Source: Closterium sp. NIES-65
Taxonomy: Eukaryota > Streptophyta > Zygnematophyceae > Desmidiales > Closteriaceae
Direction of reading: 5' to 3'
NCBI GenBank assembly: GCA_948144175.1
Contig: CANXME010000106.1
Span: 930,001 to 994,000 of the forward strand
Length of the DNA: 64,000 nucleotides
Every line of letters starts with the position of its first letter. Position 1 is the stretch's first letter. The translations under genes and the position numbers were made by a program. The notes beneath the pieces are model-generated. The model had not been told where the DNA came from, searched no databases, and saw only the letters and a program-made list of their open reading frames with translations. Shown in pieces: positions 11,249 through 46,384 of the stretch.

Positions 11249-11296
11249 GTGAGAATTCTCAAAAGCAACCTACCTGCAGATTCGCACCCCACGCAC

Positions 11297-12296
11297 CTGC
11301 GAGGTCACCCCCCTTGGAGCGGAACTTGTCTCTCAGCTCAGAGAAGCGCTTGAAGCACCGCTGCTTGGTCTGCCCCGGCACAGCACTGGCCACGCGGTCC
11401 CACCGCAGGGGCGTGTCCTTGGGGAACTCCTTCAGCGCCTGCACCAGCGCGCGGTCCTGCGCCTCCGTCCACGTGGTTACCGCGTTACCACCACCCTTGC
11501 CCTCTGCCTCTGCCGCGCCCCCTGGGGCGATCCCTTCCTCCTCCCATCTGCTTGTGGGCGCGGGTTCGGCTCCCCCCGCCCCCCCCGCGCCCGCGCTGCT
11601 GCCCTTGTGTTGCTTGCGCTGCGACAGGAACGCGGCGTACGCGTCGCGATCCGACGGCTTCTGCAGCGCGACGGCCTTGGCGGATCGGATCACGTCGTCC
11701 ACGGCGCGCCGCCCGGACCCCACGCCTTTTGCTACCTTCTCCCATCGCTGCGTCGTCCCGCGAGGAAGCTTCACGAGAAGCTTCTTCAGCTGGTCCCACT
11801 CCTCGCGCGTCCACTCACTCGTGTCGACGCCTTCGCTCGCGGCGGCGCTGGCGGCGCTCCCGCCGTTGGCGGCGCCGCCGTCTGCGGCGCGTTGGACGGG
11901 GAGATCCGCCAGCTCAGCTTCCTGCGGCTCGCGAGCGACCGTGTTCTTGTAACGAGAGGCTGGGGATGGTTCGTCTGCTGGTTGCTCCTCGGCGTGATGG
12001 TGTTCTTCTAACGGGGGACCGACACCAACTCGGCAGTCTCCACCTGTCTGTGTGATAGGAGCGAGAGGGCCTATAACGAGGGCGAGCGCGATCCAGATGA
12101 GCGCGAACTGGAGGAATCCTGACGTCATGATTCCCGCCGCTAGAAATGCGGCGGCGAATCCGCAGAGGATGAGGAGAACGGGGCGAGAGACCGAGGCGTC
12201 TGGATCGAGCTGGTCTTCTGGCGAAACGAACGGCTCAGATGCGAGGCGCATGCGCGGCTTGACGTAATAATCTCCATCATCGAAATCGTCATCCAT
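11297..12296 (-). CDS. Membrane-anchored MYB/SANT protein (maMYB-like)
   Basis: About 333-345 residues. The N-terminus (MDDDFDDGDYYVKPRMRL) is acidic, then two adjacent membrane segments lie at about residues 39-60 and 63-80. A low-complexity linker follows. Two SANT/MYB-type helix-turn-helix domains come next: about 162-207 (WTREEWDQLKKLL, RWEKVAKGV) and 276-325 (WTEAQDRALVQAL, RWDRVASAVPG). Order and size match plant maMYB proteins (Arabidopsis At5g45420 type), ER-membrane-anchored MYB factors linked to root-hair growth. The second SANT is also DnaJC2/ZRF1-like. The frame can run to a stop at 11259, or splice at CTCGCAG|GTGCGT (exon end 11297) into a short unseen last exon. The ATG at 12296 gives the expected start. 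The frame is intact. Confidence 0.8.
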
Positions 12297-12362
12297 GGCC
12301 GCTGCGTCCCGCTGCTGGCGCGCCGCGCCTAATCACAATTAATCTAAGTTTAGGAGAATCTG

Positions 12363-13105: not shown

Positions 13106-13117
13106 TGGTATCAGAGC
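13106..13117 (+). other. Primer-binding site of Ty3/gypsy-2
   Basis: TGGTATCAGAGC is the complement of the 3' end of initiator tRNA-Met, the usual primer of plant LTR retrotransposons. Its position fixes the LTR end and the plus orientation of the host element of the nest. Confidence 0.9.
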
Positions 13118-23371: not shown

Positions 23372-23500
23372 TGTCAGATTTATATGACATAGTTGCTGTA
23401 GGCTATCGTGGGGTAGCACATATGGGGTACAGGTTTTCTAGGGTTGTATTTGTACCCAATCTTTCCTTAGTCATTCCATTCCTGTTTTCTTTACTTCACA
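23372..23500 (+). repeat. 5' LTR of copia B
   Basis: 129 bp, TGTCAGATTTAT to TTTACTTCACA. Primer site TGGTATAGAGCGGG follows. Confidence 0.92.
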
Positions 23501-23589
23501 TGGTATAGAGCGGGTCCTACCTTAGGACCGTTTTTTTTTTTTAGGGCCCACCGAAGCGCGCCCCGAGGCGCGCCTTTTTTTAGCGACCC

Positions 23590-24470
23590 CCTCGGGTCGC
23601 CTTTTCCCTTGCGGCCCCGCTGTCCCTCAGACGCGGCCCCGCCACCTCTCCTGATCGCGGCCCCGCCGCCTGTTTGACGCGGCCTCGCCGCCTACCCTGA
23701 CGCGGCTCCGCCGCCTCCCCTGACGCGGCCTCGCCGCCTCCCCTGACACGGCTCCGCCGCCTCTCCTGACGCGGCCCCGCCGCCTGTCTGACGCGGCCCC
23801 GCCGCCTCCCCTGACGCGGCCCTGCCGCCTCCCCTGACGCGGCTCCCCCGCCTCCCCTGACGCGGCACCGCCGCCTCCCCTGACGCGGCTCCCCCGCCTC
23901 CCCTGACGCGGCCCTGCCGCCTCCCCTGACGCGGCCCTGCCGCCTCTCCTGCCGGCCCGCCACTGCACCTGCCGGCCTGCCGATGCACCTGCCGGCCCGC
24001 CACTGCACCCTACGGCCCGCCGCTGCACCTGCCGGCCCGCCATTGCACCTGCCGGCCTCGCCGCTGCACCTGCCGGCCTCGCTGCTGCACCTGCCGGCCC
24101 GCCGCTGCACCCTACGGCCCGTCGCTGCACCTGCCGGCCCGCCACTGCACCTGCCGGCCCGCCTCTGCACCTGCCGGCCCGCCACTGCACCGGTCAACCC
24201 GCCGCTGCACCTGACGGCCCCGCCCCTGCATCTCCTGGCCGAGCCGCCTCAGCAGCCGAACCGCCCGTGAGCCGAGCCGCCCGACGCCGAGCCGCCCGGG
24301 ACCCGAGCCGCCCTGCCGCCGAGCCGCCCGGGAGCCGAGCCGCCCTGCACCCGAGCCGCCCAGCCGCCGAGCAGCCCGGGAGCCGAGCCGCCCTGCGCCC
24401 GAGCCGCCCAGCAGCCGAGCCGCCCAGCACCCGAGCCGCCTTTCTGCATACCTACACGACCTGCCCTGCC
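23590..24470 (+). repeat. GC-rich repeat leader of copia B
   Basis: Arrays of ~15-18 bp units (CCCTGACGCGGCCCCGCCG type, then GCACCTGCCGGCCCGCC type, then GAGCCGCCC type). Sequence differs from leader A but the architecture is the same. The open frames here are compositional. Confidence 0.8.
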
Positions 24471-24539
24471 TGGTGAGCACAGTCCCACTGACACTGCGAG
24501 CTCTTTCCCTGCTGCTAGCACTGCGTCGCTGTCGTCGCC

Positions 24540-27500
24540 ATGGCTACCCCTAGTGTCCTAGCTTTTGACGCTGAGGGTCGCGCCATTGATTTTGAGGTCT
24601 GGTTAGACGACCTGCAGTTGTTCTTACAGTGCGACAGGGCTGACGACCTTTCTCTCTTTGATCTCACCTCTGGCGCCTCTCCTGCTCCTGCTGCTGATGC
24701 TGAGCCCGCTGTCCGCTCTAAGTGGGCCACCCGCGATGCTGCTGCACGTCTTGCTGTGCGTCGCCACCTCCCTACCTCTGAGCGTGCGCACTTCAGTCAG
24801 TACAAGAGTGCTCAGACCTTGTACGACGCTGTAGTTGCGCGCTACTCCTCCCCTGCCACTGCTGCACTGAGCCGTCTCATGCTTCCCTACCTCTTTCCTG
24901 ACCTCTCTGCCTTTCCCACTGTCGCTGACCTCATTACGCACCTCCGCACTAGTGACACTCGCTACCGCGCCGCCCTTCCTGCTGAGTTCTGCGCTAAGAA
25001 CCCCCCCCCCATGTACATCGCTCTCTACTACGTAGTCGCGCGCCTCCCTGACTCCCTTCGAGTCGTCAGGGACCACTTTCTCGCAGTCTGTCCCACCACC
25101 CTCTCCGTCGACCTCCTCGAGAAGGCCCTCCTCGCAGCGGAGAAGAGCATCGTCGCTGTAGGTGCTTCTCGTGGTGACCCTCGCACCCCCATCTTTGAGG
25201 GGTGCTCTCCTTCCCCCTTGCTGCCCTCTGTTGCCTCTGCTGCTGCTGCCGACCTGCTTGGTCTAGAGTCGGTCGGCGCGGCGTCTGCCCCTAGTGGGAG
25301 ACGTCGCTCCAGCAAGGGCAAGGGGGGCAAGGGCGCGGGTGGAGCTGGAGGGGGCGGTGGCGGTGGCGGCGGTGGCGGCGGAGGGAGTGGGGGTGGCGGC
25401 GGGGCTAGTGGCGGGGGTGGTGGTGGTGGTGGCAGCAGCGGCGGAGACGGTGGTGGTGGTGCCAGCGGTGGTGGTGGAGGCAGCGGCGGAGGTGGAGGCG
25501 GCGGAGGTGGAGGCGGTGGAGGCGGCAGCGGAGGAGGCGGTGGTGGTGGAGGAGGTGGAGCTGGTCGGGGTGGTACCCAGCAGCGTAGCGGCGGTGGTGG
25601 TGGCCAGCGCTCGCACCGGCAGCAGCAGCAGCGCTCGCGGGACATCCCTCCGCCTCAGCAGCTTCGTGAGTGGTACGCTGGGCGTCAGAGGGGTGGGGGT
25701 ACTGGTCCCTGCACCTACGTTCTTCGTTCCGGCGACCGCGCGGGTGAGCAGTGTGGGGGTGCCCACGCGACCCAGCGCTGCTTTGGCCGCCTGACGGACG
25801 CCTGGCGTCAGCAGTTCCCTGGGGCTAGTGAGATCCCTCGCTGGGATGAGCTTCTCAGGGCTGGTGTAGCGATCTTTGATCTTGATTTTGATGCTATCCT
25901 TACTGCTATGTATGTTGTGGATTATAGTGAGGAGAATGAGGGTTACCGCTGTTTCCAGCCCGACCCGGGCATTGGTCCTGCTGCGCTAGGTGCTTGTGAG
26001 GCTGCTGCTCTAGGTGCCAGTGCGTCTGCGCTCTCAAGTACTGGTGAGACTGCGCTCTCAGGTACTGAGTCGTCCTCGTCCTCCCTCACTTTCACACTTG
26101 ACTCCGGAGCTTCTCGCTCCTTCTTTCGAGACCGCACTACCCTTACGCCGCTTGGCCGGCCGGTTGCGGTCTCCCTTGCTGACCCCTCTGGGGGTCCTGT
26201 CCTGTCTCACTTCTCCACTGTCCTCCCGTGTCCGGCTGCCCCTTCGGGCACCCTGTCGGGTCTGTACCTTCCCTCGTTCTCTACGAACTTGGTGAGTGGA
26301 GCAGACCTGCAGGATGGGGGTGTTCACCAGTTCACTCCTGCGAGTCAGCGGGTGACCCACTGCACGGAGGCACGCACAGGCCGACACCTGGCCACGTTCT
26401 CGCGTCGGCCGGGGTCGAGTCTCTACACCCTGACCGTTGAGTCTCCTCCTGTCCCTGCGTCTGGTCAGGTGGCTGCGTCGGGTCAGGTACTTGCTGCTGC
26501 GTCCCGGTCAGGTCCTGAGTCTGCCCCCTGTTCTTGTCGCCTCCTGTCTCACGAGACTCTCCTGTGGCACCACCGTCTTGGCCACCCCTCCTTGCCCCGT
26601 CTTCGGAGCATGGCTTCCCGTGTCCTTGTCTCTGGTCTTCCCCAGTCTCTCCCTCCTCTCCCCTCCGGGCCAGGACCTTCCTGTGTCCCCTGTGTCGAGG
26701 GTCGCCTCCGGGCTACTCTTCACTCCTCCCACTTCCCCCCGACAGAGGCTCCCCTGCAGACGCTTCACATGGATGTGTGGGGCCCAGCCCCCGTCCGTGG
26801 GCAGGGCTACGAGCGCTACTTCCTGTTGGTGGTTGACGACTACTCGCGTTACACCACAGTCCTCCCCTTGCGCAGCAAGGGTGCGGTCACTGAGGTGCTG
26901 ATCGAGTGGATCCGCGAGGCTCGTCTCCAGCTCAGGAAGAGCTTCGGCTCGGACTTTCCTGTTCTGCGTCTGCACTCTGACCGAGGCGGAGAGTTCTCTT
27001 CTCACCTTCTGCGAGACTACTGTCGTGCACGGGGGATCCGCCAGACCTTCACGCTTCCGGACTCACCACAGCAAAATGGGATTGCTGAGCGCCGCATTGG
27101 CATGGTCATGGATGTCGCTCGTACGTCCATGATGCATGCGGCTGCCCCCCATTTTCTGTGGCCGTTTGCGGTGAGGTACGCGGCGCATCAGCTCAATCTT
27201 CACCCCCGGGTCTCTCGGCCTGCGATGTCCCCAGCCTTGCTATGGACGGGGAAGGTTGGCGATGCGTCTGTGTTCCGTGTCTGGGGATCTCGGGCGTTTG
27301 TCCGCGACTTGTCTGCGGACAAGCTGTCCCCTCGCGCTGCTCCCTGTGTCTTCCTTGGCTTCCCCACTGACGCCCCAGGGTGGCAGTTTTACCACCCCTC
27401 CTCTCGTCGTGTTCTGTCCTCCCAGGACGTCACGTTCGACGAGTCAGTCCCCTTCTGCCGTCTCTTCCCCTACCGCACTCCTTCCCTCCCCCCTCCCCCG

Positions 27501-30442
27501 GACTTCCTTGTGCCGGTTCCCCCCCCGGTAGACCCCCTCCCCCCTCAGGTTCCTGCCCCCTCAGGTGTGTCCCAGGTAGACGCCGTTGACCCGGTCGAGG
27601 TTACTGGTGACTCTGGTGCTGCTGCGGGTGCTGAGCCTGGGGGTGCTGACTCTGGGGGTGCTGTGCGCGGGGGTGCCGAGCCTGGGGGTGCTACTGCTGG
27701 GGGTGCTGGGCCTGAGGGTGCTACTGCGGAGGGTGCGGAGCCTGGGGGTGCTGAGCCGGGGGGTGCTGTGCCTGGAGGTGCTGGGTCTGGGGGTGCTGGG
27801 TCGGGAGCTGCTGAGCCTGGGGGTGCTGAGCTGGGAGCTGCTGCGCCTGGGGGTGCTGCGTCTGGAGCTGCTGAGCCTGGGGTTTCTCCTGCTGCTGCGT
27901 CTCGCCGGGAGCCCCTCTCTCCACAGGAGCTGCGCGAGTGGTTCGCTCGCCGCTGGAGGCGTGCTGCTGAGTCTGGAGGTGCTGCTGGAGCTGGGGCTGG
28001 AGCTTCTTCGACCGTCGAGGGTGCGGGTGCTGCTGGTCCCGGAGCTGCTGGACCTGCGGGTCCTCCTGGAGCTGGAGCTGCTGAGGGCGTTGGTGCTGAG
28101 CCTACTGCTGTTGGTCCTGCCGCTGGAGGTGTGGGTGGCGCTGGTGCTGTCGGTGAGGGTGCTGGTGCTGTCCCTGCTGCGTCTGGAGCTGCCGCGCGGC
28201 CTCGGCCGTACTTCGTTCCGCTCCTGCAGCAGGTTCTTGGTCTTTCTCCTCAAGTAGAGGGTCCACCGCCTGTCCAGTCGCAGTCCCTGCTGGAGCCTTC
28301 CTCTCCACTGCCTGCTCCCTCTCCTTACACTGGTCCTACTGGAGGTCTTGCTGAGCGTCGTGAGCCTGCGTCTCGTCCCGCGTCGCCTGTTCGTGCTGCT
28401 CGCGCTAGTGGTCGCAGTTCGCGTCAGCGTCCTCCTCCTGTCCCTGGCACGCACCGGATGTCTTTACGTCCGTCCACTGCTCCTCTGCGTGCCCCTTTGC
28501 CTTCTCCTCCTGAGTCCTCTCTTCCTGCGCTTGCCGGCCTGAGTTGAACTCTCTTCGCGCTGCCAGTCCTACTGTCACGCGTCTGCTTGCTACTGTCGTC
28601 ACTGACCCCTCTTTTAAGTCCACTGCTGCGTCTGCTCTAGTCGCTGAGCTCGTCGACTTTGCTGCTCGCTGTCGTCTCGACTACGCTGCTAGTCTTGTTG
28701 CTGAGTCTGCGTCTATCTGTCCTCCGTCCGTCGGGGGTGAGTGTGCTCTTGGCACGGACGTCCTAGTGGACAGGCAGGAGGAGTTACAGTGTCTAGCGGC
28801 TGCTTCACCTCATCTCGCGTCTGTACTGCTTGCCCCTGAGGGAGACCCGGATGCACTAGACATCCCGACTCCGCGTTCTTACGCGGAGGCCGTAGAGGGT
28901 CCCTACTCCTCTCAGTGGCAGGCAGCTATGGATGCAGAGATGGCTTCCTGGAAGTCCACAGGCACCTACGTTGACGCGGTTCCCCCTCCTGGGGCGAACA
29001 TCGTCAGTGGCATGTGGATCTTCAGGGTGAAGCGGCCGCCGGGCTCTCCACCTGTCTTCAAGGCACGGTACGTTGCTCGTGGCTTCAGTCAGCGGCAGGG
29101 AGTTGACTACTTTCAGACCTTCTCTCCCACCCCGAAGATGACTACTCTTCGGGTGCTGCTGCACATAGCCGCTCAGCGCGACTACGAGCTTCACTCTCTC
29201 GACTTCAGCACTGCGTTCTTGCAGGGTAGCCTGCACGAGGAGATCTGGCTTCGCCGTCCACCTGGCTTCACTGGGACTTTCCCTCCTGGCACCCAGTGGA
29301 GCCTCCGACGGCCAGTCTACGGTCTCCGCCAGGCACCGCGTGAGTGGCACAACACACTGAGGACTACGCTTGCGGCTCTTGGGTTTGCTCCTTCTACTGC
29401 TGACCCGTCGCTGTTTCTTCGCACCGACACTTCCCTGCCGCCGTTCTACATCCTCGTGTACGTCGACGACTTGGTCTTTGCCACAGCGGACACTGCTGGA
29501 CTCGCCTACGTGAAGTCCGAGCTGCTGAAGAGACACACGTGCACAGACCTGGGTGAACTGCGCAGCTACCTTGGCTTGCAGATCACTCGGGACAGAGCAC
29601 GCCGCACCATTACCTTGACTCAGTCACACATGGTGCAGCAGGTCCTTCAGCGCTTCGGCTTCACGTACTCCTCGCCTCAGGCCACTCCTCTGCCTACTCG
29701 CCACTCACTCTCAGCTCTGCCTTCGGATGAGTCCGTAGAGTCGAGTGGTCCGTATGCAGAGCTTGTTGGCTGCCTCATGTACCTGATGACCTGCACACGA
29801 CCTGACCTTGCATACCCTCTGAGCATTCTTGCACGCTATGTTGCTCCTGGGAGACACAGACCGGAGCACATGGCTGCAGCGAAGAGGGTATTGCGCTACC
29901 TGTGCAGTACGTCAGGCATGGGGCTAGTGCTTGGAGGGCGGAGTCCAGTGGTCCTTACCGGCCACGCGGACGCTTCTTGGGCTGACGACCAGGCTACGCA
30001 GCGGTCGTCACAGGGTTACACCTTCAGCCTTGGTTCCGGCTCTGTCTCGTGGCGGTCTACTCGCTCGTCTTCGGTTCTCGGCTCCAGTTGTGAGGCTGAG
30101 ATCTACGCCGGGGCCATGGCTGCACAGGAGCTTCGCTGGCTCACCTACCTGCTGACTGACCTTGGAGAGCCGCCTCGTTCTCCTCAAGTGCTGTACGTAG
30201 ACAACAAGGCCATGCTGGCCTTGTGTCGAGAGCAGCGCTTGGAGCACAGAACGAAGCACATTGCTCTCCGCTACTTCCTTGCTCGTGAGCTGCAGCAGCG
30301 TGGTCAGTTGCGACTTGCGTACGTGGCCTCTGAGGCCAACACTGCTGATGTGTTCACCAAGGCACTCGCGCCTTTTGACCATCAGCGCTTTTGCACCCAG
30401 CTGGGTCTTGTGCCTGTCTTGCCTCACTTGCTCTCCTCTTGA
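24540..30442 (+). pseudogene. Gag-pol coding region of copia B (fossil, nearly whole)
   Basis: Gag starts MATPSVLAFDAEGRAIDFEV and carries the copia Gag domain over about 240 residues, a Gly-rich tract of ~90 residues, and a Cys/His motif of form C-x15-C-x3-H-x4-C. The protease has LDSGASRSFFRD. Integrase has HHRLGHPSLPRL, LHMDVWGP, LHSDRGGEFSS and PQQNGIAERR. The linker is a run of GGAEPGGA-like repeats. Reverse transcriptase has YVDDLVFATADTA; RNase H has CEAEIYAGAMAAQELRW. About one break. It is the best reference for the family within the window. Confidence 0.93.
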
Positions 30443-30648
30443 CTTCACTTGTACTGTGACATATATATATGCCTGCTCTTGCTTGTCTAGTTTTATATAT
30501 ATGTCTGTATTCCTGCATGTGAACTGGCCTCTGGCCCTACTCTTGTGCTCGGACTGTGTGGTGACTTTGTGATCCACCCTGAGCTTGCTTTGCTTTGCCT
30601 GACTGGTCTTGTGACCCCTTGTTCTCCCCCACTTTGCCTATGGGGGTG

Positions 30649-30779
30649 TGTCAGAGTATTATAGCTGATGCTTGTTTGTAGGCGATAGTGGGGTAGCACA
30701 TATGGGGTACAGCTTTCTAGGGTTGTATTTGTACCCAATCTTTCCTTAGTCATTCCATTCCTGTTTTCTTTACTTCACA
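30649..30779 (+). repeat. 3' LTR of copia B
   Basis: 131 bp, TGTCAGAGTATTATAGC to TTTACTTCACA, preceded by TATGGGGGTG. Confidence 0.92.
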
Positions 30780-44659: not shown

Positions 44660-45672
44660 ACATCGCCGACGCCCTGACCCGACCGAGAGTACAATCCGCT
44701 GCAGTACTCATCACCCACTCGAACCCATTAATTACCGGACTATTTACCCACGGCTACACGACGGACCCATTCTTCACAACGGGAAATCATCAGCAAGCTA
44801 CGACGCAGAAAGGGGACTATTACCTAAAAGCCAGAACCGAACGGATTTGGGTTCACGCTTACCGAGTGCTGCGTGAACTTCTCATCCAGGAGATCCACGA
44901 TTCGAACTTCTCCAGACACTTCGGGGTTGATAAAATCCAGAAACAACTGCACTGTCAATATTACTGGCCTGATTCATCAAACGACGTCCAACGCTATGTG
45001 TCCTCATGCAAGGTGTGCCAAGCAATGAAATCGACACGTCAGCGACCAGCAGGGCTGCTGCAACCCCTCGAGCCACCCAAACGACCGTGGCAGCAAGTGA
45101 CGATGGATTTCGTCACGGGGATGCCAGCTGGGCCGACAGGCAACGACGCTGTTCTCGTCGTCGTCGATCGCTTCACAAAAATGGCGCACTTCGCACCATG
45201 CCGAACAACAATCACAGCCAAAGAAACTGCGCGCCTCTTCATCTCAACGGTCGTGCGACTGCACGGCATCCCTTCGGCGATCATCAGCGACCGAGACCCA
45301 AAGTTCACATCCAAGTTCTGGAAGGAAACATGGGCGCAGTACGGCATGAAGCTACAGTTCTCATCGGCATACCACCCACAGACGGACGGTCAAACCGAGC
45401 GGACCAACCAGACCATGGAGCAGCTGATCCGGACAAACTGCCCCGACCCTGCCCGCTTGGAAGACTCGCCCGCGATGTTGGAATTCGCTTTCAACAACGC
45501 ACGGTCCAGCACGACTAATCACTCCCCATTTTTCCTGAATTACGGGATGGACCCGACAGTTCCCACGACAACTACTCTCGACAATCCGATCCCGAGGTCA
45601 CAGACTTTCATGACAGAACTTCAGGAAGTCCGAGAAAAAGCCGCAGACGCAATTCGCAAGGCGAATATTACT
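44660..45672 (+). mobile_element. Ty3/gypsy-2 segment 5: integrase
   Basis: After a short tether it shows the integrase HHCC zinc-binding domain (H...H near 44920-44935, CKVC near 45010), then the DDE core: MDFVTGMP with the first Asp (~45105), SDRDPKF (~45290) and HPQTDGQTERTNQ (~45370-45420), followed by the LEFAFNNA and FFLNYG motifs. The stretch 44866-45672 is one long open frame. It is interrupted by a TRIM with the duplication TTACT. Well preserved relative to the rest of the fossil. Confidence 0.92.
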
Positions 45673-46049
45673 TGTCAGAATCCCAACCACTAGACCATTG
45701 GGATAAAAGGGCTTGTTTCAGTAGCGGGTCAGTGCGCCCATAACCCCACAGGCAAACGCGCCTGTAACCCCCCTTAGGATCGATCGGGGATCTCACAGTG
45801 TAGCTCTACTGACACCCCCCCACACTCGGAGGCCTAGGACTGAGCACAGTGGCAACGGCCAACATGTGCCTACACCGGGATTCGAACCCGAGACCGCTCT
45901 GATACCATGTCAAAATCCCAACCACTAAACCATTGGGATAAAAGGGCTTGTTTCAGTAGCAGGTCAGTGCGCCCATAATCCCCCAGGCAAACGGGCCTGT
46001 AACCCCCCTTAGGATCGATCGAGGATCTCACAGTGTAGCTCTACTGATA
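45673..46049 (-). mobile_element. TRIM (miniature LTR element) with tRNA-like promoter
   Basis: 377 bp inserted in gypsy-2 integrase; target duplication TTACT (45668-45672 and 46050-46054). Terminal repeats of 142 bp each (45673-45814, 45908-46049) flank a 93-bp core and differ at about 8 positions (~6%). On the minus strand the order is LTR, primer site TGGTATCAGAGC (45907-45896), core, polypurine tract GTGTGGGGGGG, LTR, which is the full LTR-element plan with no coding. A perfect pol III A box (TGGTTTAGTGG, 45932-45922) lies near the 5' LTR end and a perfect B box (GGTTCGAATCC, 45888-45878) in the core, 33 bp apart. Confidence 0.88.
45878..45932 (-). promoter_or_regulatory. Putative RNA polymerase III A/B-box promoter in TRIM
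   Basis: The A box TGGTTTAGTGG fits TRGYNNARNNG at all positions and the B box GGTTCGAATCC fits the GGTTCRANNCC consensus. Spacing of 33 bp is within the tRNA range. The primer-binding site lies between them, so the unit overlaps the LTR-core junction. The motif fit is seen; pol III use is inferred. Confidence 0.55.
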
Positions 46050-46384
46050 TTACTTCCCGCAAATACACCAACCTTCTACGACGGGAACTCGTCTTGACAA
46101 CTGGGCAACTAGTGCTTCTTGACACGAAGAACCTGCACCTGCCCGGTCCATCGAAACTACGGCCACGATTTTGCGGACCGTTCAAGATTCTCAAGATGGT
46201 GACACCTGTCACCGCGAAGCTGTTGCTACCCGACGATTGGCGCATTCATGACGCCTTCCACATTAGCCTTCTTCCGAAGTTCGTGCCAGCAATGACCGAC
46301 ATCGCACATCAGCAAGCTGCCCCGACAGCACGACCTGTCCCAGATGTTGGGCTGGAAAGGCCCTTAGGATCTTTGCAGGGGTGA
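46050..46384 (+). mobile_element. Ty3/gypsy-2 segment 6: integrase end and chromo-like domain
   Basis: It resumes after the TRIM with GQLVLLDTKNLHLPGPSKL and FCGPFKILKMVTPVTAKLLL, then the sequence DAFHISLLPKFV typical of gypsy integrase C-termini leading to a chromodomain. Coding ends at a stop at 46382-46384. The 3' LTR of gypsy-2 is not seen, because another element's LTR begins here. Confidence 0.88.

Follow-up and report, generated by a model that had tools for sequence, protein, structure and literature searches.

Terminal-repeat retrotransposons in miniature (TRIMs) comprise two long terminal repeats (LTRs), a primer-binding site and a polypurine tract in less than 1000 bp, carry no coding sequence, make target-site duplications (TSDs) of fixed length and are mobilised in trans by autonomous LTR elements. 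Those with promoters for RNA polymerase III (pol III) are the closest described systems to the element analysed here, a 377-bp TRIM in a 64,000-nucleotide stretch of the Closterium sp. NIES-65 genome (GenBank assembly GCA_948144175.1, contig CANXME010000106.1, positions 930,001 to 994,000), which as a whole is called the window. In Cassandra, a promoter of the 5S rRNA type lies inside each LTR, and the RNA runs from the 5' LTR to the 3' LTR with an 18-bp terminal repeat (PMC10886601). Helenus elements are TRIMs whose LTRs contain a tRNA-like sequence, and the name TRIMp3 was proposed alongside them (Kojima 2024, PMC10886601). The sole plant family of Helenus, from Selaginella, has an LTR of 120 bp and an internal part of 85 bp (PMC10886601). 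SMART and the TRIMs of Chlamydomonas and Volvox are likewise small and form tandem arrays with shared LTRs (PMC4717578); the words tRNA and promoter are absent from the main text of that paper, and no tRNA-like promoter is therefore described there. Finally, tRNA-derived short interspersed elements (SINEs) of the SINE2 type carry tRNA-type A and B boxes near the 5' end of their RNA, as proposed here, but they have neither LTRs nor a primer-binding site and depend on non-LTR elements.

The Closterium element is like Helenus in being a small TRIM with A and B boxes in a tRNA-like sequence, a primer-binding site and a polypurine tract, and further in its 5-bp TSDs (as in fungi and plants) and its putative Copia partner (as in fungi; PMC10886601). 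It differs in that its LTR holds the A-box half only and the primer-binding site lies inside the tRNA-like sequence, the Selaginella family being compared here by its description. With an A box in the LTR and the B box in the core, it lacks the defining Helenus feature of both boxes within the LTR. Judged from its sequence it is an element that resembles TRIMp3, having conserved pol III promoter motifs, without that feature. An initial annotation of the window had set a tRNA-type promoter against the 5S-type promoter of Cassandra; the shared presence of a pol III-type promoter and the difference in its type are correctly drawn, although the comparison was incomplete, since tRNA-type TRIMs are known. 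The novelty is thus the split and not the tRNA type. No published split tRNA-type promoter was found in a literature search that included PMC4717578 and PMC10853983, most subscription papers and Repbase entries lying outside it. We propose that the element is moved in trans by a Copia retrotransposon and transcribed by pol III, its promoter being of the tRNA type and formed only where LTR and core meet, a reading that we favour with some reserve.

A tRNA-like sequence across the LTR–core junction

The features of the element, in its own 5' to 3' order, are as follows.

45673-46049, minus strand: whole TRIM, 377 bp, with an LTR pair, primer site, G run and TSD
46050-46054: TSD on the element's 5' side, AGTAA on the minus strand
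45908-46049, minus strand: 5' LTR, 142 bp
45948-45950, minus strand: CAA, putative pol III transcript start, from its position and the plant CAA signal
45940-45943, minus strand: TTTT in the 5' LTR, just before the tRNA-like part
45922-45932, minus strand: A box TGGTTTAGTGG, 11/11, at the end of the 5' LTR
45815-45907, minus strand: core, 93 bp, without a long open reading frame (ORF)
45896-45907, minus strand: primer-binding site TGGTATCAGAGC, complement of the initiator-Met tRNA 3' end
45875-45891, minus strand: T arm (17 bases), 5-bp stem TCGGG/CCCGG, loop TTCGAAT
45878-45888, minus strand: B box GGTTCGAATCC, 11/11, in the core
45815-45821, minus strand: polypurine tract of 7 G at the 3' LTR boundary
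45673-45814, minus strand: 3' LTR, 142 bp, with an A box and no B box downstream
45705-45708, minus strand: TTTT in the 3' LTR, putative pol III terminator
45687-45697, minus strand: second A box, in the 3' LTR, with no matching B box
45668-45672: TSD on the element's 3' side, AGTAA on the minus strand

The size, LTRs, primer site and polypurine tract all lie where the annotation had placed them, and its claim of no coding also holds: the only ORFs wholly within the element are of 39 and 53 aa, others (30-275 aa) overlapping its ends. The structural features of a TRIM, including the TSD, are present. The two LTRs are identical at 134 of 142 positions, and the 5' LTR of this copy begins with TA, not TG; the annotation had noted neither this start nor the TSD. 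The core opens with TGGTATCAGAGC, which is complementary to the CCA-extended 3' terminus of the initiator-Met tRNA of this genome; the genes for that tRNA were taken as 26 pattern matches in the 874-Mb assembly. Plant TRIMs such as SMART and the TRIMs of Chlamydomonas and Volvox also have an initiator-Met primer site. The LTRs and the 5-bp TSD set the element apart from SINEs, which lack LTRs and insert by target priming. The three Rfam matches obtained at up to E 10 for 45600-46120 included no hammerhead, so that a retrozyme was rejected, and no 5S rRNA of the Cassandra kind.

As annotated, 33 bp separate the perfect A and B boxes, and the end of the LTR and the primer site lie in this interval. 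Of 20,000 dinucleotide shuffles of the element, 1 produced a perfect A box with a perfect B box 25-60 bp after it, and this B box is the only perfect one on either strand of the window. The junction is spanned by a full-length alignment to the Rfam tRNA model, with a score of 17.6 bits (E-value 0.69, calculated for all 4227 Rfam families) that is below the gathering score of 29. ARAGORN found no tRNA in the window or in five loci of a second family, C (see below); we therefore regard the sequence as tRNA-like and reject a tRNA gene. No acceptor stem is present in the window element.

The stretch after the primer site matches the T arm of the genome's tRNA-Gly at 15 of 16 positions, and none of 1000 shuffles, which preserve base composition only, did as well. 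For the complement of initiator-Met tRNA, 282 of 1000 shuffles were as good, and further controls gave 160/1000 (initiator-Met, sense) and 42/1000 (tRNA-Gly, antisense). Because the tRNA-Gly match is so much better than that to the initiator-Met complement, which did no better than shuffles, the B box does not continue the primer site, and extended primer complementarity was rejected as its explanation. The search for tRNA-Gly genes listed 45 matches, of which three are TRIM copies, and its pattern itself fixed most of the B box, so Gly is not established as the parent tRNA. Nearly all of the 42 other listed tRNA-Gly-like matches have a short intron-like insert of variable sequence after the anticodon. 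A pattern for animal-type tRNA-Glu, tried as another source, gave 0 matches in the genome.

As anatomy, the annotation's suggestion of a tRNA-type promoter divided between LTR and core around the primer site has the support of many copies, of a T arm like that of tRNA-Gly genes in this genome and of a second family built alike. That the split sequence is an active pol III promoter is what we infer from this anatomy.

Conservation among copies and in a second family

The expectation that further copies would exist and keep this layout was borne out. A search with the whole element listed at least 42 matches (the best 40 of 2187 candidates scored). For the opening 30 bases of the core there are 3123 occurrences with no more than 3 mismatches, and for the LTR end with primer site 4848; a reversed-pattern control gave 0 in each case. 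Among 30 loci picked for overall likeness to the whole element, 27 have an exact 5-bp TSD, two (L022, L027) are off by one base, and L017 was not scored as exact because the script used a later LTR end. These 30 loci have 27 distinct left flanks and three locus pairs with common flanks, so that copy counts may include duplicated or allelic contigs. Tandem arrays with shared LTRs also occur (L030).

We compared sets of loci chosen on different parts of the element. In the 30 whole-element loci the A box is perfect throughout, the B box is perfect in 28 and has one mismatch in 2, and the gap is always 33 bp. When 20 loci were picked by the LTR end and primer site alone, leaving the B side free, the B box was perfect in 10, had one mismatch in 8 and two or three in 2, with gaps of 36 bp (13 loci), 33 bp (6) and 30 bp (1). 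Conversely, 30 loci picked by the core pattern alone, with the A side free, have a perfect A box directly upstream in 26 cases; the exceptions are L033, L041 and L044, with other LTR-like sequence upstream, and the truncated L060. A further 28 loci were picked by primer site plus B box, two of family C being left out; their A box is perfect in 22, has one mismatch in 5 and is worse in 1, and the gap is 33 bp in 13, 36 bp in 14 and 37 bp in 1. The B box is therefore mostly kept, its absence being confined to decay (2 of the 20 LTR-end loci) and to junctions with other elements. Spacing, which had been expected to be constant, is so within limits: one subfamily has 33 bp, the other mostly 36 bp, and 30 or 37 bp are rare. 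Gaps of 30-37 bp fall within the range of tRNA genes.

The two subfamilies are A (64 loci; LTR 142, core 93) and B (21 loci; LTR 138 and core 66 in L046), with L044 unclassified and L033 and L041 having no junction. Comparing the majority base per column, we see no difference between A and B in the 42 columns from AAGCCC to the LTR end or in the 12 of the primer site, and 3 of 31 columns differ after the primer site. By contrast, 15 of 71 columns differ in the 5' part of the LTR, and in the remaining core 31 of 44 do so. For many of the loci compared, the search patterns dictated the primer site and some of the T arm, so the LTR value of 0/42 is the fairer figure, although the alignment required the last LTR bases to lie within 4 mismatches.

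These numbers bear on whether the element is an ordinary TRIM transcribed by pol II, its tRNA-like halves being a fossil left by an ancient capture of a tRNA or SINE and without a present role. Such a fossil would agree with the sub-threshold scores of the tRNA model and with the missing acceptor stem of the window element. It does not account for A and B boxes that stay near-perfect while other parts of LTR and core have diverged between subfamilies, for a second family built on the same plan, or for a single T run per unit that stands at the same place in most units. We regard a fossil as rather unlikely.

The second family was found with a search for the primer site plus B box with a non-G base after the primer site, which gave 261 matches (control 0). 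Among these is family C, in seven loci of which paired LTRs of 88-100 bp flank a core of about 176-220 bp. Its primer-site and T-arm pattern occurs 40 times at up to 3 mismatches, and several of these occurrences have TGGTCTCAGAGC replacing the initiator-Met site. Four members (L118-L121) have TGGTCTCAGA at the primer site, no longer an exact complement of initiator-Met tRNA, and LTRs that are 96-99% identical. The family C LTR is unrelated to that of the window element: eight units compared with it have only the primer site and T arm in common (30-33 bp, 83-88%), words of 9-14 bp at E >1 having been set aside. In the family C LTR, TTTT and GACCCAG come just before the primer site, and the T arm is followed by CTGGGTC. 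The acceptor stem so formed has 7 of 7 pairs, counting G-T, in 7 of 13 copies and 3-6 pairs in the other 6, among them L093 with a one-base deletion. A TTTT is present in the 3' LTR in 7 of 8 units in which that LTR can be read; L073 is without it, and the 3' LTR of L096 was not readable. Families A and C may have had independent origins or may share a common module.

That the two families share precisely the primer site and the T arm could also mean that the primer makes a further contact at the T-arm-like part, which would aid tRNA annealing instead of serving as a promoter. Ty1 RNA, with its boxes that pair with initiator-Met tRNA, is a model for this. The position directly after the primer site and the general resemblance between T arms and their complements fit such a contact. 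We consider it improbable, because the stretch matches a T arm in the sense orientation better than any shuffle whereas its match to the initiator-Met complement is ordinary, because in family C the 3' flank of the T arm pairs with an acceptor strand in the LTR, and because the A box and T run would be left unexplained.

The stems themselves allow for one more role, in which the RNA or its tRNA-like fold acts after transcription, in packaging into Copia particles, in tRNA-like processing or in escape from silencing. The T stem is paired 5/5 in 78 of 105 A/B loci, and this pairing and the intact acceptor stems of family C speak for such a function. The window element, with no acceptor stem, speaks against it, and we rate this role as the least probable of those discussed.

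Predicted transcription, Copia partner and origin

In plant tRNA genes, CAA near -10 is a start site and runs of at least four T mark the end, according to PMC11700998. Both signals recur in the TRIM. Of 108 A/B loci examined, 106 have the junction; the T run is present in 100 of these 106, and CAA stands a few bases before its place in 93 of the 106. At -11 from the 3' A box, 59 of the 63 A units and 15 of the 16 B units have a run of at least four T, and other T runs between one A box and the next number 5 in all A units and 4 in all B units. Starting at the AA of CAA and stopping at the TTTT would give an RNA of 245 nt with AAGCCCTTTT (about 10 nt) at both ends.

From these elements we can suggest a full cycle. 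TFIIIC would bind the A and B boxes of the 5' LTR and core, and pol III would start near CAA/AAGCCC in the 5' LTR and stop at the TTTT of the 3' LTR. The terminal repeat of the RNA would serve the first strand transfer. Initiator-Met tRNA would prime at the primer site, which occupies the place of the anticodon arm, and the reverse transcriptase and integrase of Copia would complete the cycle. Reverse transcription would copy the A box and start region into both LTRs, the B box remaining single in the core, so that only a complete element could be transcribed and 3' LTRs and solo LTRs would be silent.

Several observations weigh against this account. A start at CAA places the TTTT about 7-10 nt into the RNA, where it would have to be read through, whereas in the 3' LTR the same TTTT would have to end pol III transcription. 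As a pol III terminator, four T are weak. Thirteen of the 106 A/B loci that have the junction lack the CAA. In family C, CAACCC is found in 8 of 13 copies, four are without CAA and in L073 it is displaced; the A box of this family, read by eye, is 10/11 (TGACCCAGTGG). The tRNA-model score of the window element falls short of the Rfam gathering score, and a tRNA was listed for only 4 of 15 other copies scanned (2 of 8 and 1 of 2 sources for family C, 1 of 5 sources for A/B), at 16.6-20 bits and always under the same threshold. The LTR half does not match tRNA-Gly significantly (69/1000 shuffles as good), the tRNA-Gly letters compared with it having started only inside the A box, and the tRNA-Gly genes are evidence for a T arm of this kind in the genome but do not make Gly its source. 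The 30 whole-element loci have only 7 distinct junction sequences; since these young copies are near-identical, conservation among them says little and was discounted. The adjacent upstream stretch of the LTR is also conserved between A and B (2 of 29 columns differ), and conservation is therefore not limited to the boxes. Truncated copies were considered as a readout of the RNA 5' end and set aside as too few: in 4 of the 196 matches to the LTR the first 80-97 of its 142 bp are lacking, L031 and L032 starting at the same place.

A candidate relative of the partner lies in the window itself.

23372-30779, plus strand: Copia element with LTRs, TSD TCGCC, and integrase and RVT_2 ORFs

Its LTRs of about 130 bp begin with TGTCAG, as does the 3' LTR of the TRIM, and its primer site has one base missing (TGGTATAGAGC). 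No perfect B box is present in this Copia element. In 2 of the 30 core-pattern loci, L033 and L041, a TRIM unit of core plus LTR stands between a Copia-type LTR and the leader of that Copia-type element, joined at the primer site in the order LTR(helper)-PBS-core-LTR(TRIM)-PBS-leader(helper), where PBS is the primer-binding site. The LTR and leader in L041 are 96.9% and 96.4% identical to the window Copia, and those in L033 75-90%. L044 resembles these chimeric loci, but its upstream LTR-like sequence is without a match in the window, and L122 has a similar primer-site junction for family C with another LTR element as partner. The simplest reading of the chimeras is template switching between co-packaged RNAs. 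We infer from L033 and L041, and less clearly from L044, that a Copia element is the partner of the TRIM, and the window Copia is likely a relative of this helper. In L076 and L077 the core begins directly at the primer site after a GTCCAC-type repeat, so that here again the breakpoint is at the primer site.

If pol III transcription from the split promoter is correct, an LTR element can do without pol II, and start, stop, terminal repeat, primer site and promoter are packed into about 100 bp around one junction. The model predicts that LTRs alone are never promoters, which is not expected where the promoter lies inside each LTR, and silent lone LTRs bear on how families reach thousands of copies without disturbing neighbouring genes. 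It would also suggest a concrete origin of TRIMs from pol III transcripts. Tentatively, and with more doubt than confidence, we suggest that the split reflects a general route from SINE to LTR element. In such a route, a pol III RNA headed by a tRNA-like sequence would gain an initiator-Met primer site replacing the anticodon arm, and priming there would set the LTR end inside the tRNA, cutting the promoter into a duplicated and a single half. This would have happened at least 2 times here (A/B and C), leaving a promoter that is complete only in full-length copies and solo LTRs that are born silent.

Other features of the window

The window has a GC content of 60%. An ORF encoding an integrase zinc domain together with an integrase core, which we take to be Ty3-like, runs from 44647 to 21 bp inside the TRIM. 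A further initiator-Met primer site at window position 13106 is without a B box and presumably belongs to another LTR element. Among the 20 ORFs scanned, the sole non-transposon domain match is in a minus-strand ORF at 11259-12332 with Myb DNA-binding domains.
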